DNA of 20,203 bases. Source: a virus. Where the stretch lies: positions 1 through 20,203 of IMG/VR virus record IMGVR_UViG_3300030329_000133. One strand, given 5' to 3'. The notes beneath the pieces are model-generated. The model searched no databases, had not been told where the DNA came from, and worked only from the letters and a program-made list of their open reading frames with translations. A program made the position numbers and the translations under genes. Of the stretch, positions 1 through 20,203 are shown piece by piece (the stretch's first letter is position 1; each line of letters opens with the position of its first letter).

Positions 1-198
1 GGTGGACGTGAGGCCGCATCCGAAGCACTCCGCAAAGCTGGCATCCCCGGCCTCAAGTATTTCGATCAGGGTAGTCGCGCAGGGGGCGAAGGCACCCGCA
101 ACTACGTCACATGGGATCAAGACGTTCTCGACCGCTCCAAGATGCTGGAACGCGATGGGCAAGATTTAGCTAAAGCACTAATGGAAGTTGAACCATGA
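1..198 (+). CDS. 3' end of a large phage protein, possible polyvalent/MuF-type C-terminal domain (partial)
   Basis: Frame 1 is open from the first base to a TGA at 196-198, giving the last 65 residues of a protein whose start lies outside the window. The segment contains AGIPGLKYFDQGSR and then GTRNYVTWD. From memory, this looks like the C-terminal signature of large polyvalent or MuF-type phage proteins, where a short AGI(P/K)G+(R/K)Y block precedes an NYV(V/I)(F/W)D block. That link is recall, not a search. The stop overlaps the ATG of the next gene (195), so the two are translationally coupled. The first 160 bases are about 60% GC with many C-ending codons, unlike the gene that follows. 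The role is unknown; an internal virion protein or a toxin-like domain delivered with DNA are both possible. Confidence 0.75.
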   Translation, partial: GGREAASEALRKAGIPGLKYFDQGSRAGGEGTRNYVTWDQDVLDRSKMLERDGQDLAKALMEVEP

Positions 199-1706
199 GA
201 CAGGCACAAGGCACGTCTATCCCTGCACCAATAGGTGGTTGGAACGCCCGTGATGCGGTTGACATGATGGGGCCGTCTGATGCGGTGGTATTAGACAACT
301 ATTTCCCAGATGAGAACGAAGTTCGTTTGCGGCAGGGTAGCTCAGACCATGCGACAGGACTGACGGATGACGTTGAAACGCTTATGTCTTATAAAAGCGG
401 GTCAGCTTCTAAGATGTTTGCGGCCACGGATGGCGGGAACATATTTGAAGTCACCAGTTCTGGGGCGGTCGGTTCGGCGGCAATATCAAGTTTAAGTAAT
501 GCACAATTTCAATATGTGAATTTTGGAACGTCCGGGGGTAATTTTCTCTGGATATGCAACGGAGCGGACGCGCCACGACATTACAACGGGTCATCGTGGG
601 CAACGCCGACCATAAGTGGTGTAACAAGCACAACAATAGTCAATGTGACGGCGCATAAAACGCGGTTATTTTTTGCTTTAACTAATAGTTTAAAATTTGG
701 GTATCTCCCCGTGGCTAGTGTAGCCGGGACGGTAGCAACCTTTGACCTAGCGAGTTTAGCAACCAAAGGCGGCTCATTAACGGCGATTGGAACGTGGACG
801 CGTGACGGCGGGGATGGCGCGGATGATTTAGCCGTGTTTATTACCAGTGAAGGCGAGGCGATTATCTATGCCGGGACGGACCCCGGTGATGCAACAAAGT
901 GGTCACTGGTTGGTGTTTTTAGCATTGGTCGGCCTATAGGTAGACGGTGCGTTGAGAAGGTAGGCGCGGATTTAATCGTCATCACGGAAAACGGGTTCAT
1001 ACCGCTTTCTAAAGTTTTGCCATTGGGGTTGAGTGCGCCAAGTGTAGCAATATCGGACAAAATATCGGGAGCGGTAAAAACAGCGGCCAAAAGTTTCAAG
1101 GATACGTTTGGCTGGCAAGCAATTTTATATCCAAAAGGTGGTTTTGGGTTATTCAACGTCCCTAATTCGACGGTGCGAAATTATCACCAATATGTTGTAA
1201 ATTTAACAACAGGCGCATGGTGCAAATTCACTGGTCTAGACGGCAATGCGTGGGTGGTTCACGACGGAAGTTTATATTTCGGCGGTGTAGGCAAAGTGTA
1301 CCTTGCGGATACGGGAACAAATGACTCTGGCACTGCAATATCGGGTAGCGGGAAAACCTCGTTTCAGTATTTTGGCGGCAGGGGGGTTTTAAAACAATTT
1401 ACTCTCATTCGCCCAATTATCGCATCTGATGGGGCGTTACCCGTTTCGATAGGTTTTGATGTGGATTTTAAAAACGGGACGGATGTGTATACGCCATCAA
1501 GTGTAACCAGCGAAGGTGCCGAGTGGGACACGGCAACGTGGGATACGGCGGTATGGGCTGGAGAGTCAGCGCCGATACAGGCGTGGCGTTCAGTTACGGG
1601 CGTAGGTTATAACGCGGCGGTACGAATAAGAACGTCAACAACAAATCAAGGTGTCACTTGGCATGCAACAGACGTGCAATTCATTCCGGGGTCTGGACTT
1701 CGATAG
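195..1706 (+). CDS. Tail nozzle/stabilisation-like protein, copy A
   Basis: This 503-residue protein is rich in beta-strand-like Gly/Ser/Thr/Val blocks and has no signal peptide or membrane helix. It is probably the ring protein below the adaptor in a podovirus tail (nozzle or packaged-DNA stabilisation type). Support comes from the second copy at 12231: three blocks occur in the same order and nearly the same spacing, namely QYVNFGTSGGNFLWICNG near residue 106, AIIYAGTDPGDATKW near 223 and GADLIVITENGFIPLSKV near 257. The N-terminus (MRQAQGTSIPAPIGGWNARD) has the Pro-Ile-x-Gly-Gly-x-Asn pattern seen in such proteins. It starts at an ATG overlapping the previous stop, with TGGAAG upstream at 184-189. 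No adaptor gene is visible immediately upstream, unlike copy B. The protein is about 120 residues shorter than copy B, partly because it lacks the inserted C-terminal domain there. Confidence 0.75.
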   Translation: MRQAQGTSIPAPIGGWNARDAVDMMGPSDAVVLDNYFPDENEVRLRQGSSDHATGLTDDVETLMSYKSGSASKMFAATDGGNIFEVTSSGAVGSAAISSLSNAQFQYVNFGTSGGNFLWICNGADAPRHYNGSSWATPTISGVTSTTIVNVTAHKTRLFFALTNSLKFGYLPVASVAGTVATFDLASLATKGGSLTAIGTWTRDGGDGADDLAVFITSEGEAIIYAGTDPGDATKWSLVGVFSIGRPIGRRCVEKVGADLIVITENGFIPLSKVLPLGLSAPSVAISDKISGAVKTAAKSFKDTFGWQAILYPKGGFGLFNVPNSTVRNYHQYVVNLTTGAWCKFTGLDGNAWVVHDGSLYFGGVGKVYLADTGTNDSGTAISGSGKTSFQYFGGRGVLKQFTLIRPIIASDGALPVSIGFDVDFKNGTDVYTPSSVTSEGAEWDTATWDTAVWAGESAPIQAWRSVTGVGYNAAVRIRTSTTNQGVTWHATDVQFIPGSGLR

Positions 1707-2025
1707 GGCTTGGCCGCTTTTAGAAGAAGCGGTTCAAATGGGCGATGGCATTTCTAAAGAAGAAGTGCGGGACGCCATAAAAGTCGGCGAGTTTTCTTTT
1801 TTTAGTAGAGAAAAAAGCGCAGCGGTTACAGCCGCTGACGGCACAACCCTTCGGATCGGGTTAGCTGGCGGCGATATTGAAGAGCTTTTAGATATAGAAG
1901 AAGAAATAACGGTTTATGCCATGAACAATGGTTTTGAGCGAGTTGAGATTATGGGCCGTCCCGGTTGGGAGAGAGCCTTGGACGGCTATGAAAGAGTAGC
2001 CATTTTATTAAGGAAAGAGCTATGA
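1651..2025 (+). CDS. Small conserved phage protein, possibly GNAT-like (start uncertain)
   Basis: Up to 124 residues, overlapping the end of the nozzle gene. The pattern RAWPLLEEAV, then LRIGLAGGDIEELLDI, then GRPGWERALDGYERV and a terminal LRKEL matches a small protein I recall from podovirus structural clusters. The final GRPGWERxL...L+KEL block resembles the C-terminal strands of GNAT-fold acyltransferases, but catalytic competence cannot be judged. Start choice is open: the longest frame begins at a GTG (1651), an ATG follows at 1663, and an ATG at 1738 has the best ribosome site (AGAAGAAG eight bases upstream). The last option would remove the RAWPLLEEA block that I believe belongs to the family, so 1651 or 1663 is preferred. 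The stop overlaps the next ATG (2022). Confidence 0.75.
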   Translation: MSLGMQQTCNSFRGLDFDRAWPLLEEAVQMGDGISKEEVRDAIKVGEFSFFSREKSAAVTAADGTTLRIGLAGGDIEELLDIEEEITVYAMNNGFERVEIMGRPGWERALDGYERVAILLRKEL

Positions 2026-4483: not shown

Positions 4484-5997
4484 TGGGAATGTTTGATGAC
4501 TTACGGAAGCCCCAAGCAAACACAAGCCAACCAAGTGCGCCCGTGGAATCAAAAAGCACGGAGTTGTTTAAAGATTTTCTAGCTCCGCAAGAGTTAGAAG
4601 AAACCGCCGTTTTGACTCAAGATGAGCGGTTGCCTCCGATGGCGGTTGTTCCTGTGTCAGATGATGTTTATGGCAATATTAGCTTTGACCCTAACGCGGG
4701 AATAGTTGGAGCTTTAAAAAGAGGAATTGAAGCACCGGGAGCCGTGTTACGAGGCGAAGCACCGCCAGAACGATTAGCGGAAACAGCGTTCTTATTTTCT
4801 CCGGGTTCAGCGGCAAGCAGGGCGGCGTCACAAGCGTATAGAACAATGGTTCCCCGCGCTCCAACGCGGCAAGAATTGCGAGAGGCTGCGGATGCGGGAT
4901 ATAAAGCTATTAGAGAGTCACCCGTTCAATTTAGTATAGAAACGCTAACTAAATTTGGCACAGATTTGAAATCAAAATTAAATGAAAAACTTTGGACAGA
5001 AAAAACTGCCGCTGGCAAAGAACTTCATAAAGTTATTGACGATTGGCTCCTCAGTCCACCACCCGGTGCAACAGGAGCATCATTTGGGGCGTACACGATC
5101 TTGCGTGAACGCTTGGGAGATATTGCCGGGAGTCCTGAAACGAAAATACGAAAAGCAGCCATGTTCGCTATGGACGAGTTGGACAAATTTGTTAAAGCGT
5201 TTGGTGATGAGGCTTCTGTGGCTGGAGCCTCTACCGCAAGAGGCACAACGCCGCTTGCACGTCCCGGTCAGGCACAGGTATCAAGTCCCGCAGCGCAGCG
5301 ACAAATCGCCCAACAGTATGAAGAAGCAAGGGCTAACGCGGCGGCTGGATTCCGTTCCGATGCAATTCAAGGATTAGATAGGGCCACTAGATTAAGGACG
5401 GCAGCAAGTGCCTCTGGTCGGAACCTCGACAATACTATCCGACAAAGGCTGACTAGTTTAAGACTTAACGACAGGGCGATGCGTGGCTTTAGCAAAGCTG
5501 AAAAGCAAGCTATTGACGACATCATTGAAGGCCGTCCAACCAAGAACGCGGCAAGGTTTCTGGGAAATTTATTAGGCGGCGGCGGCGGTCTTGGTATGGG
5601 AGTAACAGGCGGCTTGGGGTTTGGAGTCGGTGCTTATTCCGGGGGGGGCAGCCCGTTGTTAGCGTTGTTAGGACTTGTGCCGCCAGCCGTAGGGTATGGA
5701 TCGAAAACGCTTGCCAATCTTTTATCGCAACGTCAAGTAAAAGCGTTGGACGAACAAATCCGCAGCCGTTCAGCCTTGGCCCAAAGTATGCCAAATGTTC
5801 GTCAGTATGCACCAAGGGCAGCTGATGCAAGAACACGGTTAGGTGAGAGAGAAGTATTGCGTCCTTTGGCAAGGGCGTTAATGGCTTCGCCAGTTCAGCC
5901 TAAAAGTCTTTCAGAAAACAGGCCAAAGAGTCAATTAGAGCGACGAAGGGAAGAAGCCTATAAGCGGTGGTTCTATGGGCGCGGTGGTGGTGCTTAA
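4483..5997 (+). CDS. Putative internal virion/ejection protein with Gly-rich hydrophobic segment, 504 aa
   Basis: The first 60 residues look disordered and acidic. A helical region follows, then an Ala/Arg/Gln-rich middle (about residues 250-340). A long Gly-rich hydrophobic stretch spans about residues 363-406 (NLLGGGGGLGMGVTGGLGFG, then LLALLGLVPPAVGYG). Such stretches in phage internal proteins are candidates for membrane insertion during DNA ejection; that is inference here. The C-terminus is strongly basic (SQLERRREEAYKRWFYGRGG), compatible with DNA or portal contact. The gene starts at a TAATG overlap and is the last gene before the intrinsic terminator at 6023-6044, so it closes this transcription block. 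No enzymatic motif is visible. Confidence 0.75.
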   Translation: MGMFDDLRKPQANTSQPSAPVESKSTELFKDFLAPQELEETAVLTQDERLPPMAVVPVSDDVYGNISFDPNAGIVGALKRGIEAPGAVLRGEAPPERLAETAFLFSPGSAASRAASQAYRTMVPRAPTRQELREAADAGYKAIRESPVQFSIETLTKFGTDLKSKLNEKLWTEKTAAGKELHKVIDDWLLSPPPGATGASFGAYTILRERLGDIAGSPETKIRKAAMFAMDELDKFVKAFGDEASVAGASTARGTTPLARPGQAQVSSPAAQRQIAQQYEEARANAAAGFRSDAIQGLDRATRLRTAASASGRNLDNTIRQRLTSLRLNDRAMRGFSKAEKQAIDDIIEGRPTKNAARFLGNLLGGGGGLGMGVTGGLGFGVGAYSGGGSPLLALLGLVPPAVGYGSKTLANLLSQRQVKALDEQIRSRSALAQSMPNVRQYAPRAADARTRLGEREVLRPLARALMASPVQPKSLSENRPKSQLERRREEAYKRWFYGRGGGA

Positions 5998-6022
5998 TTC
6001 AATTAACAAGTAATGACGAGTG

Positions 6023-6044
6023 ACCCGCTTCGGCGGGTTTTTTT
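6023..6044 (+). terminator. Intrinsic terminator, ACCCGC stem with TTCG loop
   Basis: A perfect six-base stem (ACCCGC at 6023-6028 with GCGGGT at 6033-6038) closes a TTCG tetraloop and runs into seven T residues (6038-6044). This is a textbook rho-independent terminator. It lies between the 504-aa gene and the tail-fibre gene, all on the + strand, so the downstream genes need readthrough or their own promoter. I could not see a convincing sigma70-type promoter in the remaining 15 bases before the fibre start. Confidence 0.93.
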
Positions 6045-6058
6045 AATGGAGTAAAGAC

Positions 6059-7312
6059 ATGGCATGGAATGGAAGTGGTGCATTTAGTCGCACCAACGGC
6101 GTTAATACGGGTTCAACTACGTGGACGCAAGATAGAGATGCGGGAACCAAGATAACGTCAGCCCGACATGATACACACGATCAAGACCTAAGTGATGGCA
6201 TCAACGCGTGTATCGCTAAGAATGGCGAAAACTACATGACGGGGGCGTTTGATCTTAATGGTCAAGTCATTGAACTGGATGCCGATGCGGATACAAAGAT
6301 TGGTGCAACGGCTGACGATAGAATTGACATAACGGTTGGGAACTCAATCACAGAGCGTATTGGACACGACTCCACAAACTCCAGTGCTTTTCACCTTGTC
6401 GCTCCAGCGGCTCTAACGGCGCAAGCGAACACGGCTTATGCCCACGTTAATGTGGCCCCTGCGGGTGCGGTGACAGTGCCATCGGGAACTACAGCGGTGG
6501 TTGCGTCCCTAGAGCTTAATGAGCCTAATATCACGGCCACTGGGACGGTTACAGCGGCATCTACGTTATACATTGCAGCGGCTCCAACAGAGGGTTCCAG
6601 TAATTACGCTCTATGGGTTGATGCGGGTAATGTTAAGTTTGATGCAGACCTAACTCTAGGGGCTGGTGCGGCTACGGATGTCAAGCTGGTTTATGATGGA
6701 AACGCAAAGGACTTCTATATTGGGCTAGATGACTCAGCCGATAAGTTTGTAGTCGGTGTGGGTTCGACTGTAGGCACTAACTCAATAATGACTTTGGACG
6801 ATGACGCTGTAACTATAGGTGACGGGGCGGCTGTTGATACCAAGATCGTATTCGATGGAAATGCCCAAGATTACTATATAGGGTTGGACGATTCTGCTGA
6901 TGATCTTGTTATAGGATTAGGGTCAACGGTCGGTACAACTCCCGCTATTTCAATTGATGAAAACCAAATGACCACTTTTGGGAAGGCGGCGTTAGGTGCA
7001 ACATTAACGGACACGTCAAACACCGGGAGCATCACGCTAGATTTTAACGCATACCAGAATTTCATTCTTACGTTTACGGGTAATGTCACTTTAGCGAATC
7101 CCACAACGGAATCGGTGGGACAATCTGGTTTTATAGTTATTATCCAAGATGGCACAGGTTCAAGAACGCTTTCTTTGGGAACCGATTATGAAACTGCCGG
7201 GGGGTCTGGCCTGACCATATCAACGGCAGCTAACGCCGTTGACGTTGTTCCGTATATTGTAAAAGCAGCCGGGTCTATTCAGTTAGGCGCACCGCAGTTG
7301 GCGTTTGCATAA
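6059..7312 (+). CDS. Tail fibre protein with 53-residue tandem repeat
   Basis: The N-terminus (AWNGSGAFSRTNGV, then STTWTQDRDAGTKITSARHD, then THDQDLSDGINACIAKNG) matches the particle-binding N-terminus of tail fibres from many marine phages, as I recall it. Residues about 204-306 hold two copies of a 53-residue unit built round DGNAKDFYIGLDDSADKFVV and DGNAQDYYIGLDDSADDLVI, a beta-rich repeat typical of trimeric fibre shafts. The C-terminal part (SGFIVIIQDGTGSRTLSLG) resembles a small fibre tip domain. A ribosome site GGAG (6048-6051) lies seven bases before the ATG, right after the terminator. Its TAA overlaps the ATG of the LamG/SPRY gene (7312), so the two proteins are probably made together and may form one adsorption apparatus. 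Confidence 0.88.
   Translation: MAWNGSGAFSRTNGVNTGSTTWTQDRDAGTKITSARHDTHDQDLSDGINACIAKNGENYMTGAFDLNGQVIELDADADTKIGATADDRIDITVGNSITERIGHDSTNSSAFHLVAPAALTAQANTAYAHVNVAPAGAVTVPSGTTAVVASLELNEPNITATGTVTAASTLYIAAAPTEGSSNYALWVDAGNVKFDADLTLGAGAATDVKLVYDGNAKDFYIGLDDSADKFVVGVGSTVGTNSIMTLDDDAVTIGDGAAVDTKIVFDGNAQDYYIGLDDSADDLVIGLGSTVGTTPAISIDENQMTTFGKAALGATLTDTSNTGSITLDFNAYQNFILTFTGNVTLANPTTESVGQSGFIVIIQDGTGSRTLSLGTDYETAGGSGLTISTAANAVDVVPYIVKAAGSIQLGAPQLAFA
6668..6976 (+). repeat. In-frame tandem repeat in the tail fibre, two units of about 159 bp
   Basis: Unit 1 (6668-6826) and unit 2 (6827-6976, slightly shorter or decayed at its end) encode residues 204-256 and 257-306. Matching residues are exactly 53 apart, for example Asp213/Asp266 in DGNA and Asp224/Asp277 in GLDDSAD. 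The protein copies are far better conserved than the DNA, where many third positions differ, so this is an old duplication held by selection on the fold. Confidence 0.88.
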
Positions 7313-9834
7313 TGGTTGTATGGGCACCGACTTGGTTTGGTAGTGCCGCAGCGGGCGGTTTTGCTATCACTAATTGCGTTATGCTAGATGGTTCGGCTGA
7401 TTATCTAAGTTTTACGCCGGGATCAGCGGGTAATCGCGATGCATGGACGTTATCGGTCTGGTTTAAACTTAGTGAAGTGCCAGCGGGTACGGGTCAGACG
7501 ATTCTTAGTGCTGGCGCAACAAATGATGAAGATTACTTGCGATTAGATGGCGACGGTAAACTACAATATCGTGTAATCACTAGTAGTAGTACGGTTGTTA
7601 ATAAAATTTCTAGTGCAATTTATCGTGATCCGACAGCCTGGGGGCATGCGGTTGTACGTTATGATAATTCGGGTAGTACATGTAGACTGTGGTTTAACGG
7701 CTCAGAAATTACAGCTTTTGCCACAAACACTAATCCAAGCAGTGATTCGTCTAATTTAAATAATAATGTAGCCATAAACATAGGTAGACGAGTCGCAGGT
7801 ACAGATCAATATGCCGATCTGTACGTTTCCAACATAGTGTTTGCGGACGGGACTATGACGGATGCGGATAGTTTTGGCGAGATAGACAGCGACACAGGCA
7901 TATGGATACCCAAGGATTATAGTGGATCATACGGGACTAATGGATTCAAACTTGAATTTAAACAAACAGGAACAAGTCAAAATTCGTCAGGCATAGGTGC
8001 GGATACGAGCGGAGAGGACAACCACTTCGCGGTTACGTCATTGGCGGCTGCAAATATTACAACCGACTCACCCACGAATACCGCTGCCGATAATGAGGGG
8101 AATTACTGTACTCTAAATCCATTAGATAGTGGTGGTGGTACATTTTCCAACGGTAATTTAAATTGGACAGGCAGTGCCAGCAAATCTGTGCGTGGAACAA
8201 TAGTTTTACCAGCGGGGGTGAAGGCACGATGGGAAGTGAAAACAAAAGGCACAGGGGGTAGTCATTATGTTGGGGTGATAAAGTCATCTGACGATGCGGA
8301 TGCGTATACTTTTGATGCGAATGAAATTCGATATAACACCGATGCCTGGGGTATTTCTGTCGATACCACAGGCACAAATGGCGCAAGACCCCAACATAAC
8401 AATTCATTAGAAACATCACTATTTGATTGGGCAGAAGATGATGTTCTTGGTGTCTACTGGGATGGTGAAAATGGCACTCTAAAATTTAATAGAAATGGAG
8501 GTTCATTAGGAACTGCTTACTCAAGCCTTGCTACTACAGCAAGTTGGATTCCTATACTATCGGATGGTGTAACAGATGGATACGAAACTAACTTTGGATC
8601 AACAGCATTTACGCATTCAACTGTTGATAGTAATTACGAGGAAGGAATAGCAACTCAAAATCTTCCAGAGCCGACAATCACAGATCCAAGCGCACATTTT
8701 CAAATTAAAACATGGACAGGAAATGGCAGTGACGCTAGGGCTTTGACTTTCGATGGAAATTCTGACCTACAGCCTGATTTAATATGGATCAAGAATAGAG
8801 ATGATAGTGCAGATCATGTTCTTTTCGACAGTGTGAGAGGATTCTCCACTTCAACGACAGGGACACAAATCTCTTCTAATTTAAATGCTGATCAACCTTC
8901 TACAACGGGTGGTCATGTTCAGTCCGTTCAGTCTGACGGATTTACGTTAAAAGATGGTACTGCTGGAAATGCAGATCATAATGTTAATAATTCATCGGAT
9001 GACTATGTAGCGTGGGGTTGGAAAGCTGGCGGTGAGCCTTCAGCCGATAATACTGAGAGTGCTGGTTCTTCACAGACAGCCGGGAGTGTTAAAATAGATG
9101 GGGCGAATGGTAGTTCCGCAAATGGTTCTATAGCAGTGACTAGAGCATCAGCTAATACTACGGCTGGTTTTTCTATAATTACTTACACAGGAACAGGTAG
9201 TAATGGAACTGTACCACATTTCTTAGGTGTAGCCCCTGAATTTATTTGTGTTAAGAAGCGAGGGAATGGAGATGATTCTACTGACAGACACTGGGGAGTT
9301 TATCACGTTAGTCAAGGAAACACTAAGTATGCTTTATTAAGTGATAGTAATGCTTTTGGTACAAGTTCAGGGTATTGGAATGATACTACACCGGGAACTT
9401 CCACCTTTGCAGTAGGAACTGATGACTCAGTTAATGGTAATAATGCACCTTATGTTGCCTATTGCTGGACGAGTGTAGAAGGCTTCTCAAAAATCGGATC
9501 ATATACAGGTAATAACAACGATGACGGACCTTTTATTTACCTTGGCTTCAAACCAGCTTTTTTTATGGCGAAAATGTCTAGTGCATCTGGCAGTTGGTTT
9601 TTGTGGGACAATGCTCGTGCTACGGATAATCCTGTAGAGCATGTTCTGTTTCCAAATGAAAGTGCGGCAGAAAATAACAGAGCTACTTCACACACGTATT
9701 ATCAAGGCGTTGATTTTCTGGCGAATGGAGTGAAATTCCGCAATGACCATCCCGACTGCAATGGTAATGGTACAACCAATATCTATGCAGCATTTGCAGA
9801 AACACCATTTGCATTTAACAATAGAGCGAGATGA
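7312..9834 (+). CDS. LamG + SPRY + beta-repeat receptor-binding/tail protein, 840 aa
   Basis: Residues about 21-190 look like a LamG/concanavalin-type jelly roll (LDGSADYLSFTP, AWTLSVWFKLSE, LRLDGDGKLQYRV). Residues about 285-435 look like a SPRY domain (ARWEVKTKGTGGSHYVGVIK, DDVLGVYWDGENGTLKFNRN). The rest carries three related beta-rich units: about 462-577 (LQPDLIWIKNRDDSADHVLF, DDYVAWGWKAG), about 618-720 (FSIITYTGTGSNGTVPHFLG, APYVAYCW) and about 724-836 (FSKIGSYTGNNNDDGPFIYL, NIYAAFAETPF). These match a tail-protein repeat common in marine phages. Carbohydrate or protein recognition at the host surface is inferred from the domains. The ATG overlaps the fibre stop and has no good ribosome site, so translation probably depends on coupling. 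Base composition changes inside the gene near 8.4 kb. Confidence 0.88.
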   Translation: MVVWAPTWFGSAAAGGFAITNCVMLDGSADYLSFTPGSAGNRDAWTLSVWFKLSEVPAGTGQTILSAGATNDEDYLRLDGDGKLQYRVITSSSTVVNKISSAIYRDPTAWGHAVVRYDNSGSTCRLWFNGSEITAFATNTNPSSDSSNLNNNVAINIGRRVAGTDQYADLYVSNIVFADGTMTDADSFGEIDSDTGIWIPKDYSGSYGTNGFKLEFKQTGTSQNSSGIGADTSGEDNHFAVTSLAAANITTDSPTNTAADNEGNYCTLNPLDSGGGTFSNGNLNWTGSASKSVRGTIVLPAGVKARWEVKTKGTGGSHYVGVIKSSDDADAYTFDANEIRYNTDAWGISVDTTGTNGARPQHNNSLETSLFDWAEDDVLGVYWDGENGTLKFNRNGGSLGTAYSSLATTASWIPILSDGVTDGYETNFGSTAFTHSTVDSNYEEGIATQNLPEPTITDPSAHFQIKTWTGNGSDARALTFDGNSDLQPDLIWIKNRDDSADHVLFDSVRGFSTSTTGTQISSNLNADQPSTTGGHVQSVQSDGFTLKDGTAGNADHNVNNSSDDYVAWGWKAGGEPSADNTESAGSSQTAGSVKIDGANGSSANGSIAVTRASANTTAGFSIITYTGTGSNGTVPHFLGVAPEFICVKKRGNGDDSTDRHWGVYHVSQGNTKYALLSDSNAFGTSSGYWNDTTPGTSTFAVGTDDSVNGNNAPYVAYCWTSVEGFSKIGSYTGNNNDDGPFIYLGFKPAFFMAKMSSASGSWFLWDNARATDNPVEHVLFPNESAAENNRATSHTYYQGVDFLANGVKFRNDHPDCNGNGTTNIYAAFAETPFAFNNRAR

Positions 9835-9986
9835 TTAAGGTTGGGAATGTATGGTATCCCAAGTCTCAACGGAAACAAGCGATGGCAGCATTTAAGATGC
9901 GGAGAAAGGCTTGGGTAACTGAATTAAGAAAGAGAAGTTTATATGGAACCTATAAGCGCAACAATCGCAGTTATCGCAGCCGCTAA
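9831..9986 (+). CDS. Small strongly basic protein, 51 aa
   Basis: A short frame starts at an ATGA overlap with the stop of the 840-aa gene and encodes MIKVGNVWYPKSQRKQ followed by a Lys/Arg-rich tail ending RNNRSYRSR. About a third of the residues are Arg or Lys, which suggests nucleic-acid contact or simply a small virion or regulatory peptide. Support is the coupled start and the absence of any other gene in the 108 bases before 9943. Against it, the frame runs 44 bases into the next gene and the ribosome site is weak. I do not recognise a family. Confidence 0.45.
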   Translation: MIKVGNVWYPKSQRKQAMAAFKMRRKAWVTELRKRSLYGTYKRNNRSYRSR

Positions 9987-10485
9987 GGGAGCCGTTGAAA
10001 CTGCATCTAATATCAAAGATATAGGCCAATCATTAGAGGCATTATTTTCAAATCACGAAAAAGAGGAAAAAAGTCCCAAGAAGGAAAAAACTAAGGCAAA
10101 ACCTAAAACACGTATGCAGCAAGTTTTACGTATGCGGTCTGGAGATGAAGGGTATGATGACGATACTTCCATAAGTGCAGTAGCCAATAAGGTACTTGAA
10201 GATAAACAAAAAGCTCTTGCATTACAAAATTTAGCTAAAGAGGTAGACCGTAAATGGGGGAGAGGAACTTGGGAGGAAATAAAAAAACAGAGAGTTAAAT
10301 TAATACAGGAAAAGGAAGCCGCTAACCAACTTGCCAAGGAAAACGCATTAAAAAAAGCTAAGGCAGATAAAATATTTTGGCATAAGTTTTGGGTTGAAAC
10401 TGGAAAAGTAGTGTTAATATTTTTATTTGTTGGAATAATGATCGGGTTTGTAATGTGGGCCGCAACTGCCCCAAAGATAAGGTAA
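9943..10485 (+). CDS. C-tail-anchored membrane protein, 180 aa, unknown function
   Basis: A mildly hydrophobic N-terminus (SATIAVIAAAKGAVETA) is followed by a very Lys/Glu-rich region (residues about 37-60), a helical charged body, and one clear transmembrane helix at about 156-174 (VVLIFLFVGIMIGFVMWAA) with a short basic tail. This is a tail-anchored topology with most of the protein on one side of the inner membrane. From memory, similar proteins (small N-terminal hydrophobic block, conserved W/G-rich middle, C-terminal helix) occur next to lysis genes in marine phages, without known function. The start has AGAAAGAGA a few bases upstream. It is followed four bases later by another membrane protein, then by endolysin and holin, so a part in lysis or superinfection control is plausible but unproven. 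Confidence 0.8.
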   Translation: MEPISATIAVIAAAKGAVETASNIKDIGQSLEALFSNHEKEEKSPKKEKTKAKPKTRMQQVLRMRSGDEGYDDDTSISAVANKVLEDKQKALALQNLAKEVDRKWGRGTWEEIKKQRVKLIQEKEAANQLAKENALKKAKADKIFWHKFWVETGKVVLIFLFVGIMIGFVMWAATAPKIR

Positions 10486-10489
10486 CATA

Positions 10490-10834
10490 ATGGAATTTGG
10501 GGTAAGGGAATTAGTACAATTTGGAACTCTATTGGCATCCTTAGCTGGAGCATTTGCCGTAGTAAAGTCACAGCTTGCCAGAGTAATAGAGGACATAGAT
10601 AGTATAAAAAAGGAATTACATGAATTAAATACCAGACTTGATAAAACGGAAGCTGACTCCGCTGTAATAAAACATCAAAATGAAGTCTTTGGTACTATCT
10701 TATCCCCTAAGAATTTAAAAGATTTAAATCGAAGCATAGCGGAATTACAAACGGAAATGAAAGTAGTACATAAAAATTTAGATCAGGTTTATAGGATGCA
10801 TAATGGAACGCATCCACCGATAAAAGGGAAATAA
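10490..10834 (+). CDS. Membrane-anchored coiled-coil protein, 114 aa (lysis-associated candidate)
   Basis: One N-terminal transmembrane helix (about residues 8-25, LVQFGTLLASLAGAFAVV) is followed by a long charged coiled coil (about 27-102, for example SIKKELHELNTRLDK and RSIAELQTEMKVVHKNL). This topology is shared by inner-membrane spanins and by several small phage membrane proteins. No lipobox or second overlapping spanin gene is visible, so a spanin call would be a guess. It lies four bases after the tail-anchored protein and two bases before the endolysin, inside the lysis cassette. A ribosome site (AAGG, about nine bases upstream) fits the ATG. Confidence 0.8.
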   Translation: MEFGVRELVQFGTLLASLAGAFAVVKSQLARVIEDIDSIKKELHELNTRLDKTEADSAVIKHQNEVFGTILSPKNLKDLNRSIAELQTEMKVVHKNLDQVYRMHNGTHPPIKGK

Positions 10835-10836
10835 CT

Positions 10837-11202
10837 ATGCCGGAATTTGGTACTAAAAGTAGGGAAAGATTAGAGACTTGTGATCCTCAGATTCAATTAG
10901 TTCTTGAGGAGGCAATTAAACATTATGATTTTTCCGTACTTGAGGGGCATAGAACTGAGGAAAAACAACAGGAATATTTTGAATCCGGAGCCAGTAAAGT
11001 TCAGTACCCTAATTCCAAACATAATTCCTTCCCATCTATGGCTGTGGATATAGTACCCTATCCGGTTGATTGGGAAAATACACATAGGTTTAATGAATTA
11101 GCTGACGTTATTACACAAGCCTGTGAAACTGTAGGTGTGGAAAATTTATATTGGGGTTATGATTTATGGCAATGGGATATGCCACATTGGGAGCTTAGGT
11201 AA
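10837..11202 (+). CDS. M15-family peptidoglycan endopeptidase (endolysin)
   Basis: A 121-residue single-domain enzyme with the M15 (VanY/L-alanyl-D-glutamate peptidase type) zinc site: His62 in SKHNSFPSMAVDI, Asp71 in AVDI, and His117 in WDMPHWEL, with Asp114 or Glu119 as the likely general base. The preceding GHRTEEKQQEYFESGASK segment is the usual lead-in of phage M15 endolysins. Length is typical of the minimal catalytic domain, with no cell-wall-binding domain and no signal peptide, so it should need the holin to reach the murein. It would cleave peptide stems or cross-links in peptidoglycan. AAAGGGA precedes the ATG, and the stop overlaps the holin start (TAATG). Confidence 0.93.
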   Translation: MPEFGTKSRERLETCDPQIQLVLEEAIKHYDFSVLEGHRTEEKQQEYFESGASKVQYPNSKHNSFPSMAVDIVPYPVDWENTHRFNELADVITQACETVGVENLYWGYDLWQWDMPHWELR

Positions 11203-11600
11203 TGCTACCACTTTTAGGACCACTAATCGGAGGGGCATTTGATATTGGTAAACAATACTTTGCCAATAAAGCGGAAAAGTCCAAAGCTAAACATGAACAG
11301 GAAATAGCGGTAATACGAGGGGATCAAAAGTGGGATGAAATACAGGCTAGGAATAGTGGGGAAAGTTGGAAGGATGAGTTCCTTACGATTGTAATAACAA
11401 CTCCCTTTATTGCGATGTTCCTTGCGGCTGTATTTAATAATCAGGAAATGGTCAATAGAATAGGGGAAGCCTTTATTATATTAAAGTCGGAAGTACCTCA
11501 GGAATACTGGACATTACTTTTGATTGCATTTAGTGCATCCTTTGGAATTAAAGGTATAGTCAAAGGTACAAAAACATTTATTGATGGGAAGAAAAAATAA
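11202..11600 (+). CDS. Holin, gene-transfer-agent/3TM type
   Basis: A 132-residue protein with a hydrophobic N-terminus (LPLLGPLIGGAF), a charged amphipathic stretch (about 20-58), a membrane helix at about 61-79 (LTIVITTPFIAMFLAAVF), a second at about 101-120 (YWTLLLIAFSASFGIKGIV) and a Lys-rich end. The W-K-D-E motif before the first helix and the A-x-FGIKG block in the last fit the 3TM holin family first named from gene transfer agents. It would form the inner-membrane lesion that releases the endolysin encoded just upstream. It is coupled to the endolysin and to the adaptor by TAATG overlaps, which places lysis and tail assembly in one transcript. Confidence 0.88.
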   Translation: MLPLLGPLIGGAFDIGKQYFANKAEKSKAKHEQEIAVIRGDQKWDEIQARNSGESWKDEFLTIVITTPFIAMFLAAVFNNQEMVNRIGEAFIILKSEVPQEYWTLLLIAFSASFGIKGIVKGTKTFIDGKKK

Positions 11601-14105: not shown

Positions 14106-14117
14106 GAGGAGTAGATT

Positions 14118-14897
14118 ATGGATTGGACAAGTTTAATACCGTCAGTTATTGGAGGTGGTCTGGGATTATTAGGTTCCAAACTTCAATCCGATGCTGCACA
14201 GGACGCAGAGGAAGCAAGAGCAGCTGCACTGGAAAGAAACGCAGATAGAGCTTTAGCGGAAGCACAACCTTGGGGTGTTGTTGGGACGGGCGGTGTTGCT
14301 GATTTCGATCAAGATAGTCGTACTGCAATGATGGGTCTTTCCCCTGATCTACAGGCAATTTATACCGGAGCCTTAGGAAGAAGTGGTTTATGGGGAGACC
14401 AGGCAATGGCACTGGGAGCTAACCCATTTGCCGCCGCAGATGCTTTTTATAATCAACAACAAGCATACTGGCAACCTAAGGAAGATCAATTAAGAACAGA
14501 TGCGGAAACACGGTTAATGGCTCAAGGACGCTTAGGCAGTACAGGAGGTCAAAGGCAGTACCAAAGTGTAGAGGATGCAATTCTACAGGCTCAAGGCCAA
14601 CGTAGAACGGAATCTTTAAATCAATCACAACAATTAATTAATACTTTATTGGGTAGGGAATCAGCCGATATAGGGCAAGCTGTTGGACTTCTAAATATTC
14701 CATTACAGTACGGTGCGCTTGGTAGGGGTATAGGTGGTGACTTAGGTAAAGCCGCTGCATATGGTTTGGAATCCAGAGCTACCGGAGCAAAAGCATTATC
14801 GGACGTTAGAAGTGCTAGTCCTTGGGGATCAGCTTTAAGTGGTCTTGCTGGTTTATTTACTACACCCCAAGCTAAAGCTGTTTTTGGTGGAGGATAA
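14118..14897 (+). CDS. Structural protein, 259 aa, positional analogue of the 324-aa protein
   Basis: A Gly-rich hydrophobic N-terminus (SLIPSVIGGGLGLLGSK) precedes an Ala/Glu-rich helix. Residues about 109-195 carry QQAYWQPKEDQLRTDAETRL, then MAQGRLGSTGGQRQY and a Gln-rich helix. The order (acidic helix, a Q-G-x-x-G-S/T turn, Gln-rich helix) parallels residues 147-215 of the 324-aa protein at 2022, and both follow a nozzle gene, but the similarity is too weak to prove homology by eye. A strong ribosome site AGAGGAG (14105-14111) lies six bases before the ATG. There are no enzymatic motifs; probably a minor virion or internal protein. Confidence 0.75.
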   Translation: MDWTSLIPSVIGGGLGLLGSKLQSDAAQDAEEARAAALERNADRALAEAQPWGVVGTGGVADFDQDSRTAMMGLSPDLQAIYTGALGRSGLWGDQAMALGANPFAAADAFYNQQQAYWQPKEDQLRTDAETRLMAQGRLGSTGGQRQYQSVEDAILQAQGQRRTESLNQSQQLINTLLGRESADIGQAVGLLNIPLQYGALGRGIGGDLGKAAAYGLESRATGAKALSDVRSASPWGSALSGLAGLFTTPQAKAVFGGG

Positions 14898-14900
14898 ATA

Positions 14901-15767
14901 ATGGCTACACCCTGGACTGAAGTAGGATTAAAATTAAATCCTCCTGTATCTTTAAATCCTGATGATCCTAATCAGGGTCTATTGGGTTCTAATGCGGTCC
15001 TTGGTAATACTTGGATGGAAGATACATTATTAAGTATGGGTGCAGATAACCTTGTTAAAAAACATTTCCCTCATGCAATACCGGAACAACCGGAGATACT
15101 TAAAGGTGCTACAGGGTTATTTGATTCCTTAGGTAAGAAAAGAGTAAAGGTATTTCAAGATCAAGATAGTGAAGGTGGAACTCCTCCAGGTGGTGAGGGT
15201 GGTTCTGCACCACCAGGGGTAAATCCAAACATGGGTCCTGTTTCGGCTGCTGTAGCTGCTAATGATGCGTTACAAAATCCATTCCTAGGATTATTAGCTG
15301 GTCTGTTTGGTCCTATTGGTTCCGCAGTATTAGGTGGAGCAAGGGGATTAGCTACTGATAAAGCAATGAGTTTATTAAGTACAGGACCTGGAGCATTGAC
15401 AGATATATATGGTAATCCATTAACTCCAGATTGGAAAGATAATCTTGCGGGAGCTTTTGGACTTGATCCAGTTAATAAAGCAATATCACTGTCTCTTGAT
15501 CCCTTTGGGGGTTTTGGTCCTTCTGATGATGCTATTGCAGCAAGTTATGATTCACAAGCTGATGCTGCCGATCCTTATGGTTTAGGTAGTCATGCTGACG
15601 ATCCTTATGGTGGAATGGGTGATCCAAATGCACCTACTGATTATAGTATGAGCTTGGCTGGTAGTGGATCAATAGGGGGCATGCACGAAAGCGAATTTGG
15701 TGGAGATGGCGGTGACGATCCCGGCGCTGATGAAGAGGATGGTTTTTCTAACGATGAGACTATATAA
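14901..15767 (+). CDS. Virion-associated protein of unknown function, 288 aa, acidic tail
   Basis: I do not recognise a family. Residues about 92-112 are a Gly/Pro-rich linker, 126-153 a hydrophobic Gly/Leu/Ala stretch (FLGLLAGLFGPIGSAVLGG) long enough to enter a membrane, and about 220-288 a low-complexity Asp/Gly region with two DPYG motifs and an acidic end (DDPGADEEDGFSNDET). GGAGG (14889-14893) lies eight bases before the ATG. It sits between two structural genes of the second module. An internal protein with a membrane-active segment, possibly ejected with DNA, is one reading; a scaffold-like or chaperone role is another. Confidence 0.7.
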   Translation: MATPWTEVGLKLNPPVSLNPDDPNQGLLGSNAVLGNTWMEDTLLSMGADNLVKKHFPHAIPEQPEILKGATGLFDSLGKKRVKVFQDQDSEGGTPPGGEGGSAPPGVNPNMGPVSAAVAANDALQNPFLGLLAGLFGPIGSAVLGGARGLATDKAMSLLSTGPGALTDIYGNPLTPDWKDNLAGAFGLDPVNKAISLSLDPFGGFGPSDDAIAASYDSQADAADPYGLGSHADDPYGGMGDPNAPTDYSMSLAGSGSIGGMHESEFGGDGGDDPGADEEDGFSNDETI

Positions 15768-15791
15768 TAAATTTAGAGTGGAGAATAAATA

Positions 15792-17795
15792 ATGGCTAAA
15801 GTAAACCCATATGGTGATTCAGATTGGGGTGGTTTGTTTGAGGCTCAGGGAAATACATTAAGTGATGTAAGAGCCAAAATAGGTCAAGAGAGGGAAGCTA
15901 AAGTTCGACAGGCTTATGCAGATGTTATAAGTGGTGGAGGTAGTATTGCCGCTGGCAGACAAGCTAAAGCTATAGAACAGCAAAATCAATTATTCCAAGG
16001 TATCGCACAAAATCTCTTTGGTTCCAAAGATGGTATAGTTCAAATGGACCCTCGTTTAACTCAGGCAGCTAAAAGAGATAAAGACCGTCAGGAAATGATC
16101 GACTTATTTAAGACAAGTAAAATGGATAAGCCGGAAGATTTTTATAGGATGGCCGCTGAAATGCGTAATAGGGGTTATATTGGTGAGGCCGCAAAACTTG
16201 TGGCACAGGGGCATGGGTTTAGGGAACAAACACAAGCTGAAACAGGTTTGGATATTAAACTCACTGATGTAGAAGGTAAATTAGATATTGGGAGAGGACA
16301 CTTAGGTTTAGCCAAACTTAAGGAAGATTTTTTACAGAGACAAGATACGAAACGATTAAGCATAGAACAACAAGAATCTAAATGGAAGCAACAGGAAAGA
16401 ATAATACAGAGATCATTTACGAGAAGAGGTTTAGATATACAATCAGATCGTAATCGTGATTTAAAAGTTATTGCAGATAGGGAATCAGATATAAGATTAC
16501 ATTTAGGTGACCAAGCGGCAGGGATAGCACAACAAAATGCTAACACTAATACCTTTAATTCTAAAGTCAATCAAACGTATGGTTTACGAGAACAAAAGCG
16601 TAAAGAACAAGGGCAGGCAGCTACGATTAGACAAGCAGATGCAGCACTGGCATTGAAAAAAGATTTAGGATTAAAGAGTATAGATATTCAACAGCAAAAT
16701 GTTAATGTTGCGGAACGTAATGCAGCGGTTGCTGAGGACAGGGCTGCATTTGCAAAATATCTAGGCATACGGGAACAAGATTACAAAGAAATGTCTACAG
16801 ATCGTTTGTATAAAATGTCCCGTGATAAGATGGAATTTGACCAAAACTTAGCGGAACGTGGTATGACTGTTAAAGAAGCACTTTCAGAACATACTATTGA
16901 ATTAGACGGTAGGAAATTCGATCATACTGTTTTGGACGCAAAGGCTCAACGAGAGTTAGCCCAAGATATGTTTGAATTTAAAAAGGAAATGGGCTACAAG
17001 AGCAATAGTCGAGAAGATAGACTTGCTGGTTTAAAGAAAAAGATGGCTGAACACGGCATGACGCTTGATTTACGTAAGCAAGATTTTACGGAAGAATCGT
17101 TTGGTATACAGGAAGCCCGTCTACAAAAACGCATGGCAATGGAGAAATACTTTAAACAAGCCGGTATAGACCAGAGAGATCGTGAAATAACTATTAACCA
17201 AGAACTAAGACGAGAAGGGTACGATATTGAAAGAATGAATTTAAAACAAAAGGAATCTCAATTTGCCCGTAAGTTATTTCAAGATCGTATGCTTGGTCTT
17301 AAAAATTTAAGTCTTGATGAGCAACGCTTAAAATTACAAACTGATATTGCAGCTGATGATGTTCGTTTAAGAGAACAGGGTATTAATATTAAAAATATGG
17401 AGGTTAAAGATTTAAAAACATATCGTTTAGCCTCTTTGGAAATGAAGGAAAAAGAGTTAGCAATGGATAAGACAATTGCTCAAATAAAGGCAAAAGCGTC
17501 ACTTAATCCTCCTAAAGTAGCAGGGAAGCAAGAACGTATTGGTGTTCATGCTGTGCTTGAGACATCACCAGATTTGAGTGAAAAGTTTGAAAAGAAATAT
17601 GGAGTTGATACACCATGGACTGATTTAAATTGGGATAATGACCCCGATGAAGCGGTAGCTAGGTTTGCTAACGATGTACGAACGCGTATGGATAGAACAA
17701 ATGAGTCCATAAACGAAGCTACAGCTAACGTCTTAGGAGGATCAAGTGCAGATAAAAACAGTAACGATCTTTCTGGATTACTTAAAGGACAATGA
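15792..17795 (+). CDS. Long helical internal virion/structural protein, 667 aa
   Basis: After a short N-terminal motif (NPYGDSDWGGLFEAQGNTLS) the protein is almost entirely predicted helix, rich in Gln, Lys, Glu, Arg and Asp, with no hydrophobic segment. From about residue 210 to 560 a degenerate unit with a Gly followed by a hydrophobic residue recurs many times (RGLDIQ, LGIREQ, RGMTVK, HGMTLD, AGIDQR, EGYDIE, QGINIK). That suggests a long helical-repeat rod. In podoviruses such proteins form the internal core or ejectable tube; this is inference. A GGAG ribosome site (15780-15783) precedes the start, and the stop overlaps the start of the very large downstream gene (ATGA), a pairing typical of internal core proteins. 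Serine codons are not TCC-biased (1 of the first 11). Confidence 0.78.
   Translation: MAKVNPYGDSDWGGLFEAQGNTLSDVRAKIGQEREAKVRQAYADVISGGGSIAAGRQAKAIEQQNQLFQGIAQNLFGSKDGIVQMDPRLTQAAKRDKDRQEMIDLFKTSKMDKPEDFYRMAAEMRNRGYIGEAAKLVAQGHGFREQTQAETGLDIKLTDVEGKLDIGRGHLGLAKLKEDFLQRQDTKRLSIEQQESKWKQQERIIQRSFTRRGLDIQSDRNRDLKVIADRESDIRLHLGDQAAGIAQQNANTNTFNSKVNQTYGLREQKRKEQGQAATIRQADAALALKKDLGLKSIDIQQQNVNVAERNAAVAEDRAAFAKYLGIREQDYKEMSTDRLYKMSRDKMEFDQNLAERGMTVKEALSEHTIELDGRKFDHTVLDAKAQRELAQDMFEFKKEMGYKSNSREDRLAGLKKKMAEHGMTLDLRKQDFTEESFGIQEARLQKRMAMEKYFKQAGIDQRDREITINQELRREGYDIERMNLKQKESQFARKLFQDRMLGLKNLSLDEQRLKLQTDIAADDVRLREQGINIKNMEVKDLKTYRLASLEMKEKELAMDKTIAQIKAKASLNPPKVAGKQERIGVHAVLETSPDLSEKFEKKYGVDTPWTDLNWDNDPDEAVARFANDVRTRMDRTNESINEATANVLGGSSADKNSNDLSGLLKGQ
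16420..17480 (+). repeat. Degenerate helical protein repeats in the 667-aa gene
   Basis: Instances of a turn, usually [R/H/A/E/Q/L]-G-[L/M/I/Y]-[D/T/N/R], appear at irregular intervals of about 20-45 residues, each followed by a charged helix. At least seven are visible. They are too diverged for DNA-level repetition to show and are best read as ancient duplication or convergent helical-hairpin design. Confidence 0.55.
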
Positions 17796-20203
17796 AGGAA
17801 ATTACCCTCAACTTAGATCAGATTAACGCAACCCCCGCTTTACGTGAAGCAGGGGCGTTAGCTGGTGATAAAATTGTGGATGGAGAGTTAGTCCGTGTCT
17901 TTAGTAAAGAAGATGCAGGGCTTGGTCTTGAGATTACTCAAGCTAATATTGATGCAACCCCTGCTCTCCAAGGAATGAACGCTGAACCAGGGGATCGTAT
18001 TAAAGACGGTAAGGTTATACATACAGGTCAGGACTCAGCTTGGACTGCCTTTAGGTACGGGAAGGCCAAAGGGGAGGAAGAGGGATTACTTGATCAAGGA
18101 ACAGAGATACTTGAATCGTACTTCCCCACCACTGGTAGGATTATTGACTACGGTTTAGAGACAATAGGTGATGCTCTTTTCCCTAATCCATTTCAATCTA
18201 TGGAGGACAGGAAAAAATTATATTCCAAAACATATCAATCTCCCGATGAAAAATATGGTGAGGGATTTAGTGAGGCTACTCCGGAAATCCGTAGGGAAAT
18301 GATGCTACGGGAAAAGGAACGTAATCTTCAAAAGAAGTTCAGAGGTTACGTCCCCAAAGGTGGGGCATCTGAAATTATAGGGAATATGTATGGAGCTTTA
18401 AAGGACCCCACTACACTTTTACCAGCGGGGGGTACTGTTAAAACTATGATGTTATCGGGTGCTGCTTTAGGTGGAGGCTATAGTGCAGTAGATGATATGG
18501 CTAAAAGTGGAAGAGGATCATCTTCATTCCTACCAGCCAACATTGATCTTTATAAAGCTGGTCTATTTGCAACTGCTGGTGCGGCATTACCAGGGGCATT
18601 TGCAGTAGCACCTAAAATAGTAAGAGGTTCCGCTGGTTTATACACTAAAAAAACATCTCAAAAAACAGTTAATAAAGCACAGGCAATTATAGCTAAAAGG
18701 AAAACACAGGGTATTAATTTAACGGAACAAGATATGCCTCAAATTGCTGAGGAATTAGGTATGTCCACTAATCGTTTACTCAGTTCCTTTGAAGCACAGG
18801 GAGTTTCCCCTAAAGTATATAATTCAGTTGATGAAGCTGAGAAAGCATTAAATGCCGCTATATCGGAAGATAGTGGAATGTTAAGAGTAGTATCTAAAAA
18901 TGCAGATAACTTCCTTGGTGCTATTTCCACACGTTTAAAAAACATAGATGACGGTCTATACGGTAGGCTTATGCGTATGGAATTTAATATGCACAAGACA
19001 ACGGACTCATACCTTGAGCGTGTTGACCCATTTAGCCAAGAGGTATCTAAGTTACCGGCCTTAGCTAAACAGGAACTTAATAAATTACTTGCCTCAAGAG
19101 ATCATGCAGGGGCCGATCAATGGATGAGACAGCGTGGATATGATGTTATGGCTGATTCATTCGGGGAAGTTAAAAAGGTACTACAAGAGTTAGGAGATCA
19201 ATTACCAATAAAAGCAGATATGGAGGGGTACTTTCCTCGTAATGTTAGGAACCATAACAAATTCCTGGAAGCGTTAGGGGTTAATCCTAATGATGAAATT
19301 AGTATTGCATTACGGAAAGCAGCGGATGCCAAAAAGAAAAGTGTAGAAAATCTTACATCTTATGAGCGTGATCGTGTTATAGAAAAAGTAGCATTGGGAA
19401 AAGCTGGTGGGACGGGTACTAAAACTGAACGTATGAAACAAGCAATGGCTGAAGCAAGAGAAGCTAAAAAAGCTAAAGGTTTAAAAGGTACTCTATCCAA
19501 AAAAGAAAGAGATGCCGTAGTTGCAAGAGTTCTTAAGGGTCATAAACCAATAGGGGATAAGGGTTTAGGTCAAACTAAAAAACGTACAGTTAAAGATGAA
19601 ACATTAACTGATGAACTCATGGCTCACTACCGTTCCCCTGAGGAATCACTCCAAGCCTATATCCGTACCTCTGTAAATAATCTTGAGAAAAAAAAGTTTT
19701 TCCAAGGGTCAGCCGTAGATAACTTAGATGGAGATGGGATTCATCTTGAAGGTTCAATAGACAGTTTAATAAAAAATTTAAGAACTACCCGTGAATTAGA
19801 TGGTAAACAAGTAGAGGAATTAAAGGACGTAATTAGCGCGAGGTTTGGTGCGGAAGATGTAACGATGCACGGTGCAGCAAAAGGAGTAAAGAACTTAGGA
19901 TATATAGGTACACTTGGAGATTTTATGTCAACCATGACACAGCTAACTGACGTTCCTAACGTAATGGGTTATCATGGTTTTTACAATACAGCGAAAGCAG
20001 CATTTGGACCTAAGGTTACTAAAATGGAGGACATAGGTGTTACTGATATTGCTAGGGAACTAGGGGAGACAGGTAATTTTACTAAGACACTTAATACTGT
20101 ACTGAAATGGACAGGATTTAAACGTATTGATAGATTTGGTAAAGAGACACTTATGCAAGCCGTTAGAAATAAAACAATGAAACAATTAAAGACAGATTCC
20201 GGA
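17792..20203 (+). CDS. Very large putative internal virion/ejection protein (partial, 3' end outside window)
   Basis: An ATG overlapping the previous stop (ATGA, with AAAGGA upstream) opens a frame with no stop through the final base, so at least 804 residues are encoded. The first about 78 residues hold two copies of a 42-residue-spaced motif (INATPAL...AGDKIVDG and IDATPAL...PGDRIKDG). Residues about 209-236 and 250-276 are Gly/Ala-rich hydrophobic stretches (MMLSGAALGGGYSAV, LFATAGAALPGAFAVAP) that could insert in a membrane. The rest is helical and charged, with a Lys-rich region (about 545-615). Size, hydrophobic stretches and position after a helical core protein fit the largest ejection protein of a podovirus (the role of T7 gp16), but no transglycosylase motif is visible in this part and any domains beyond the edge are unknown. 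Confidence 0.85.
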   Translation, partial: MKEITLNLDQINATPALREAGALAGDKIVDGELVRVFSKEDAGLGLEITQANIDATPALQGMNAEPGDRIKDGKVIHTGQDSAWTAFRYGKAKGEEEGLLDQGTEILESYFPTTGRIIDYGLETIGDALFPNPFQSMEDRKKLYSKTYQSPDEKYGEGFSEATPEIRREMMLREKERNLQKKFRGYVPKGGASEIIGNMYGALKDPTTLLPAGGTVKTMMLSGAALGGGYSAVDDMAKSGRGSSSFLPANIDLYKAGLFATAGAALPGAFAVAPKIVRGSAGLYTKKTSQKTVNKAQAIIAKRKTQGINLTEQDMPQIAEELGMSTNRLLSSFEAQGVSPKVYNSVDEAEKALNAAISEDSGMLRVVSKNADNFLGAISTRLKNIDDGLYGRLMRMEFNMHKTTDSYLERVDPFSQEVSKLPALAKQELNKLLASRDHAGADQWMRQRGYDVMADSFGEVKKVLQELGDQLPIKADMEGYFPRNVRNHNKFLEALGVNPNDEISIALRKAADAKKKSVENLTSYERDRVIEKVALGKAGGTGTKTERMKQAMAEAREAKKAKGLKGTLSKKERDAVVARVLKGHKPIGDKGLGQTKKRTVKDETLTDELMAHYRSPEESLQAYIRTSVNNLEKKKFFQGSAVDNLDGDGIHLEGSIDSLIKNLRTTRELDGKQVEELKDVISARFGAEDVTMHGAAKGVKNLGYIGTLGDFMSTMTQLTDVPNVMGYHGFYNTAKAAFGPKVTKMEDIGVTDIARELGETGNFTKTLNTVLKWTGFKRIDRFGKETLMQAVRNKTMKQLKTDSG
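17801..18025 (+). repeat. N-terminal tandem motif of the large protein, two units 126 bp apart
   Basis: The motif I-[N/D]-ATPAL at residues 11-17 and 53-59, and [A/P]-GD-[K/R]-I-x-DG at 24-31 and 66-73, are separated by exactly 42 residues. Each unit looks like a short helix plus beta-hairpin, as in small particle- or membrane-docking modules. DNA identity is modest, so the duplication is old. Confidence 0.82.

Follow-up and report, generated by a model that had tools for sequence, protein, structure and literature searches.

A marine podovirus-type contig with two unrelated tail modules, probably an assembly chimera joined in a receptor-binding gene

The stretch of DNA analyzed here (the window; 20,203 bases, the whole of its virus record) encodes two tail modules on either side of a receptor-binding-type gene, which raises the question of whether it derives from one phage or from two. 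The original prediction placed a base-composition step at 8300-8700, within this gene, and proposed, as the cause of both the step and the doubled tails, either domain swapping or a conserved repeat through which genomes had recombined or been misassembled. The doubling is real: tail genes of unrelated sequence are located at 195-5997 and 11600-20203, and the tailB1 and tailB2 proteins have no BLASTP match to each other. All reading frames are intact, including the one that crosses the join (Table 1). The match of tailB2 to the phrog_5107 family is weak in comparison to that of tailB1 (6e-40 vs. 8e-122). This family (window 195-1706) is labelled "amidase" in PHROG; the label is probably wrong, as the position of the gene and its relatives (tubular tail B or phage stabilisation protein) are indicative of a tail-tube protein.

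Table 1. Features of the window and the phage type to which they are assigned
Feature	Coordinates	Strand	Basis
Extra gene (3' end) just 5' of left tail gene, left-type	1..198	+	
tailB1, left-type tail tubular / stabilisation protein	195..1706	+	phrog_5107, 8e-122; 83-86% to G001, L210, L212
Small gene after tailB1, acetyltransferase-like position, left-type	1651..2025	+	70-73% to G001, L210, L212
Left-type internal virion / ejection proteins	2022-2996, 2996-4483, 4483-5997	+	Similarity to L210-L212, G001
fib1, left-type fibre gene	6059..7312	+	Whole protein 84-90% to left-type relatives
Receptor-binding-type gene, 840 codons, SPRY + DUF7483, contains join	7312..9834	+	
Receptor-binding protein N-terminal tip, MVVWAPTWFGSAAAGGF, left-type	7312..7361	+	Tip pattern; left DNA match to 7355
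Composition-step interval (probable join)	7354..8466	.	GC and GC3 3-log-unit intervals
Receptor-binding gene end and spacer, already right-type	9778..9942	.	DNA 74-76% to L290, L289, L047, L058
Right-type lysis block: membrane protein	9943-10485	+	
Right-type lysis block: holin/spanin-like	10490-10834	+	80-86% to G003/G004
Right-type lysis block: endolysin	10837-11202	+	phrog_465, 2e-31; 80-86% to G003/G004
Right-type lysis block: phrog_2524 protein	11202-11600	+	80-86% to G003/G004
Right-type tail adaptor	11600-12256	+	PF24175 SU10_adaptor, 3e-13; 89% to G003/G004
tailB2, right-type tail tubular protein	12231-14105	+	90-92% to G003/G004
Right-type internal virion / ejection proteins	14118..20203	+	83% (14118-14897) to G003

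The two parts of the window belong to different lineages, each of which has its own complete gene order elsewhere (G001 and L210-L212 for the left, G003 and G004 for the right). The left genes (195-7312) correspond to the tail, ejection and fibre genes of G001 (IMGVR 3300030104_002170; 35,459 bp) and L210-L212, with the tail 83-86% and the fibre 84-90% identical to those of G001, L210, L211 and L212; the first ejection protein is 69-77% identical to its counterparts in L210-L212 and G001, and the other two are lower. At the DNA level, window 1-2792 matches L210 3724-6515 at 73%. Both the 5' and the 3' end of the fibre gene are of the left type, and the N-terminal 130 aa of its product are 91-95% identical to those of L210-L216. 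An extra stretch between the tail-tube A and tail-tube B genes is found in L210, L212 and L213 and is absent in G001. The gene order of G001 is portal, capsid, tail, ejection proteins, fibre, receptor-binding gene and lysis, with the head genes in this genome, G003 and G004 named on the basis of their size, their order and start sequences that could be recognised, rather than by family search. The first 943 bases of G001 are 92% identical to its last 943, a divergence too great for the assembly to be cleanly circular or terminally redundant.

From 9778 onward, similarity is to the lysis, tail and ejection genes of G003 (23,649 bp) and G004 (37,998 bp), in which the order is portal, capsid, small genes, receptor-binding gene, lysis, tail and ejection proteins, followed in G004 by convergent replication genes. 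Most of the right-hand genes up to tailB2 are 80-97% identical to those of G003, G004, L044 and their relatives, and the DNA is in places 96% identical to L006 and L048; this includes the right end of the window (19632-20203), which is 96% identical to L006, a contig that runs on into convergent replication genes. No match to tailB2 was detected in genome contigs, and this search therefore pointed to no host. A segment of ~70-85 residues located near residue 490 of this protein (residues ~487-573; window 13728-13931) has its counterpart after ~residue 160 in relatives that are ~90% identical (L060, L058, L070, G003 and G004), as if a domain had been relocated inside the gene. An endolysin 78% like that of the window, together with a related phrog_2524 protein, is also encoded by L302 (42,933 bp) and L303 (69,275 bp), whose fetched stretches had no match to other window genes or to the structural genes tested; this lysis pair seems to move between unrelated phages.

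The base-composition step was re-examined by computation. The GC fractions counted previously for 60-base lines were correct where checked (0.55 at 7981, 0.53 at 8041, 0.37 at 8401, 0.35 at 8461 and 0.53 at 9001). Under a single-changepoint model, the whole window exhibits one strong step from GC 0.491 to 0.405 (LLR 71.9), which is larger than the maximum in a shuffled control (LLR 32.0; 2000 shuffles of 300-bp blocks) and larger than in all 66 stretches from related phage contigs (maximum LLR 54.7, median 9.5); GC3 drops from 0.418 to 0.269 (LLR 78.4). The best GC changepoint is at 7518, with a 3-log-unit interval of 7354-8406 (7306-8466 for GC3), and a changepoint at 8700 is 8.2 log units worse. 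The predicted step was thus borne out as a contig-wide feature, while its proposed location at 8300-8700 lies at or past the edge of these intervals. When the receptor-binding gene is considered alone, there is no significant GC step (LLR 3.4, P=0.18) and a weak GC3 step at nt 8401 (0.353 to 0.252; P=0.043, 2000 shuffles); rather than being a sharp jump inside the gene, the step belongs to the whole left and right halves, with ~1 kb of uncertainty in its placement. Each side has the GC content of its own closest relatives, 0.48-0.51 in L210-L212 and 0.39-0.42 in G003, G004 and L044-L048.

These comparisons make it very unlikely that the window is part of one ordinary phage in which the receptor-binding gene and later genes are merely GC-poorer and the internal step is normal. 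Such a reading does have precedent in the left-type relatives, where GC also falls from the fibre gene to the receptor-binding gene (0.536 to 0.459 in L210 and 0.493 to 0.434 in L212) and, in L210, falls again inside the receptor-binding gene at ~+1500. Because the receptor-binding genes of these two phages are also GC-poorer than their fibre genes, the fall at 7.3-7.5 kb may be partly an ordinary feature of this gene, and a normal feature of the gene was retained as a partial cause at the 5' end and rejected for the window as a whole. In L210, however, GC recovers downstream, whereas in the window it does not, and the lasting fall to the right end is not attributable to the receptor-binding gene itself. 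An ordinary phage would also leave unexplained the size of the step relative to related stretches, the resemblance of most genes right of the join to those of a second phage type that has a gene order of its own, and the presence of two unrelated tail modules.

The receptor-binding-type gene encodes a protein with SPRY (PF00622; 2e-11, 44.2 bits, cut-off 26.3) and DUF7483 (PF24299; 4e-87, 292.7 bits, cut-off 27) domains, for which host receptor binding is a putative function suggested by its adjacency to the fibre gene, its lectin-like domains and its hypervariability. The N-terminal tip of this protein, MVVWAPTWFGSAAAGGF, fits the left-type pattern M-[PV]-[IV]-W-S-P-[AT]-[FW]-F-G-S (G001, L210, L211 and L212) and is unlike the right-type tips, M[FL][IV][FY]P[ST]GIP. 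Its first ~17 residues are left-type and left DNA similarity reaches 7355; right DNA similarity begins at 9774-9781, 5' of the stop codon. Between these points, the nearest relative shifts at ~8152-8392 from left-type (aa 181-280, slightly nearer) to right-type (aa 361-700), and for aa 441-620 the final collection scan gave L314, a right-type phage, as the top match. The last protein segment is ambiguous, and assignment of the whole gene to one type was rejected. The mid-gene assignments are weak because the gene is mosaic. The closest body segments are only ~50-56% alike in protein, and neither the whole protein nor its six peptide patterns matched anything among the viral contigs.

Composition and nearest relatives place the join upstream of or around DUF7483, so that the conserved repeat suspected in the original prediction is not required as the join site. 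Searching the two halves of the gene separately against named phages, a check proposed at the same time, did not separate phage groups, as Pelagibacter, cyanobacterial, Roseobacter and Methylophilales phages were retrieved in the same mixture by both halves. The receptor-binding gene occupies the join position in both types, with the gene order being opposite: in the left type it is the last of the tail genes, and in the right type it precedes the lysis and tail genes. Splicing the two types at this gene therefore yields exactly the gene order of the window. A single cause for the step and the doubled tails is upheld to the extent that two phage types are joined in this gene; domain swapping alone would not yield two tail modules.

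Other genomes carrying both tail modules were sought and none was found. TailB1 and tailB2 did not occur together in any of 394 loci. Of 98 full records, a set in which near-identical records of the window's own genome are possibly hidden, the 49 right-type records contained no tailB1 (the same query matches three left-type records) and the 49 left-type records contained no tailB2 (the positive control matched); no independent second copy of the join was present in these records and loci. The tail of a podovirus is built with one adaptor and one tail-tube protein. A long-established lineage maintaining two different tail modules, e.g., for host switching, would fit the intact state of both modules in the record, but it is highly improbable given this tail architecture, the lack of any relative with both modules among the records and loci searched, and the unblended composition of the two sides.

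Contig ends indicate that marine phage assemblies are generally fragile at the receptor-binding gene. Among 80 independent contigs with the fib1 domain, 30 end no more than 1.5 kb past the fibre gene, a rate 4.6 times that seen further on (P=8e-8), and right-type contigs likewise begin in or near the receptor-binding gene. The concentration of ends in or near this gene is strong in both sets (L124-L203 and L044-L123). DNA comparisons further indicate that related phages, including ones of different types, exchange the body of this gene just after its short N-terminal tip. L211 (left-type) and L301 (right-type) are 91.6% identical over the 83 bp directly following their different tips, and the L211 contig stops in the segment common to both; L171 and L291 are 83.5% identical over 649 bp, and L200 and L104 88.5% over 400 bp. 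A shared body segment of this kind offers a wrong path to an assembler, and is also a potential recombination site for the phages themselves. Near-identical stretches were seen in other pairs (L211/L301, L171/L291); for the window's own parents such a stretch is assumed.

The C-terminal 97 aa of fib1 (7019-7309) constitute a domain that is present in at least 593 viral contigs, with no match in PDB and weak matches in PHROG. This domain is up to 90% identical between phages that differ in other genes (L124-L203). The gene that follows it opens with a lineage-specific tip (WSPAFFGS, QGEFFQNP, KGEFFH, NNELWQKP or SQWLANP) and continues into a similar lectin-like body. The tip probably pairs with this C-terminal domain of the fibre protein encoded just before it, and the two may fit together as plug and socket.

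Taken with the contig ends and the exchange of gene bodies, the window is most likely an assembly chimera of two podovirus-type genomes, produced via a common receptor-binding segment. Two co-occurring marine podovirus-type phages would have carried closely similar bodies of this gene; the assembler would have entered the common body from the left-type phage, after its tail, ejection proteins, fibre and tip, and exited into the right-type phage, taking up the closing part of the receptor-binding gene from it together with its lysis, tail and ejection genes. Such a walk would result in both the two successive tail modules and the GC step. It assumes that the common segment was identical in the sample over at least one assembler word, and implies that no such joined molecule existed. 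In simulated viromes, chimeras account for <5% of contigs of at least 10 kb (PMC5610896). Two observations stand against a chimera: no parent with an exact stretch of the window's receptor-binding gene was found among the viral contigs, and the join does not disrupt the reading frame, an outcome equally expected of homologous recombination.

We consider it unlikely that the window comes from a real phage that arose when a left-type and a right-type genome crossed over once within the receptor-binding gene. Intact reading frames throughout the window, the body exchange visible in the DNA of such phages, and the fib1 domain, which is common to hundreds of contigs and could act as recombination homology, are all in keeping with a crossover. 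The resulting phage would have left head, tail and ejection genes, a hybrid receptor-binding gene, right lysis, tail, ejection and replication genes and two unrelated tail modules, a combination that we similarly regard as doubtful. Its genome would be ~45 kb (G001 ~12.3-29.1 kb, the receptor-binding gene and the remainder of G004) as opposed to the 35-38 kb of most long contigs of either type, and would probably be too long for the head; it would redundantly encode tail and ejection proteins twice over, the 98 full records and 394 loci searched contain no further genome in which the two modules occur together, and the composition of each side shows no blending. An assembly chimera is favoured because the crossover genome would be ~45 kb with two redundant tails, and because the join has no second example among the records and loci searched.

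Read literally, the record would imply a two-tailed phage; it should instead be flagged as a probable chimera. The receptor-binding gene of these marine phages is a hot spot of real body exchange and is also a site of assembly breaks and misjoins, and for this reason read support is needed wherever hosts are predicted or genes are linked across genes of this kind in metagenome contigs.

Both phage types resemble named phages in part. The left type is similar to the Sulfitobacter phages phiGT1 and pCB2047-A, which have phrog_5107 tail genes and share with it the order tail tube A, tail tube B, small gene, ejection proteins, fibre and receptor-binding or spike gene, although protein identity to the named phage collection is only 30-38%. 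The right type resembles Podoviridae sp. ctXG6705 (MW202481), where the receptor-binding gene lies between the capsid and tail-tube genes and fibres are located upstream of the tail tube; it differs in that tailB2, together with two large right-hand proteins, has no detectable match in the named phage collection. The proposed origin of the window is like that of chimeric virome contigs (PMC4247695, PMC5610896), in which a stretch of similarity joins two genomes within a hypervariable region that is also prone to contig breaks, except that the join is deduced here from gene content and composition and not from a mock community or reads. As in metaviromic islands (PMC3909814), the variable and fragile region is a host-recognition module adjoining the tail fibre, with contig ends and gene-body exchange serving here in place of the read recruitment measured in that study. 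Variable host-recognition genes in marine phages were thus already known (PMC3909814), as were tailspikes and receptor-binding proteins of modular build that carry N-terminal anchors (PMC10408124). The organization of the latter, a lineage-specific N-terminus followed by an exchangeable receptor-binding body, is also that of the gene studied here, where by comparison the lineage-specific tip is only ~10-20 residues long. What is new is this very short lineage-specific tip adjoining a widespread fibre C-terminal domain, an arrangement seen in many contigs.
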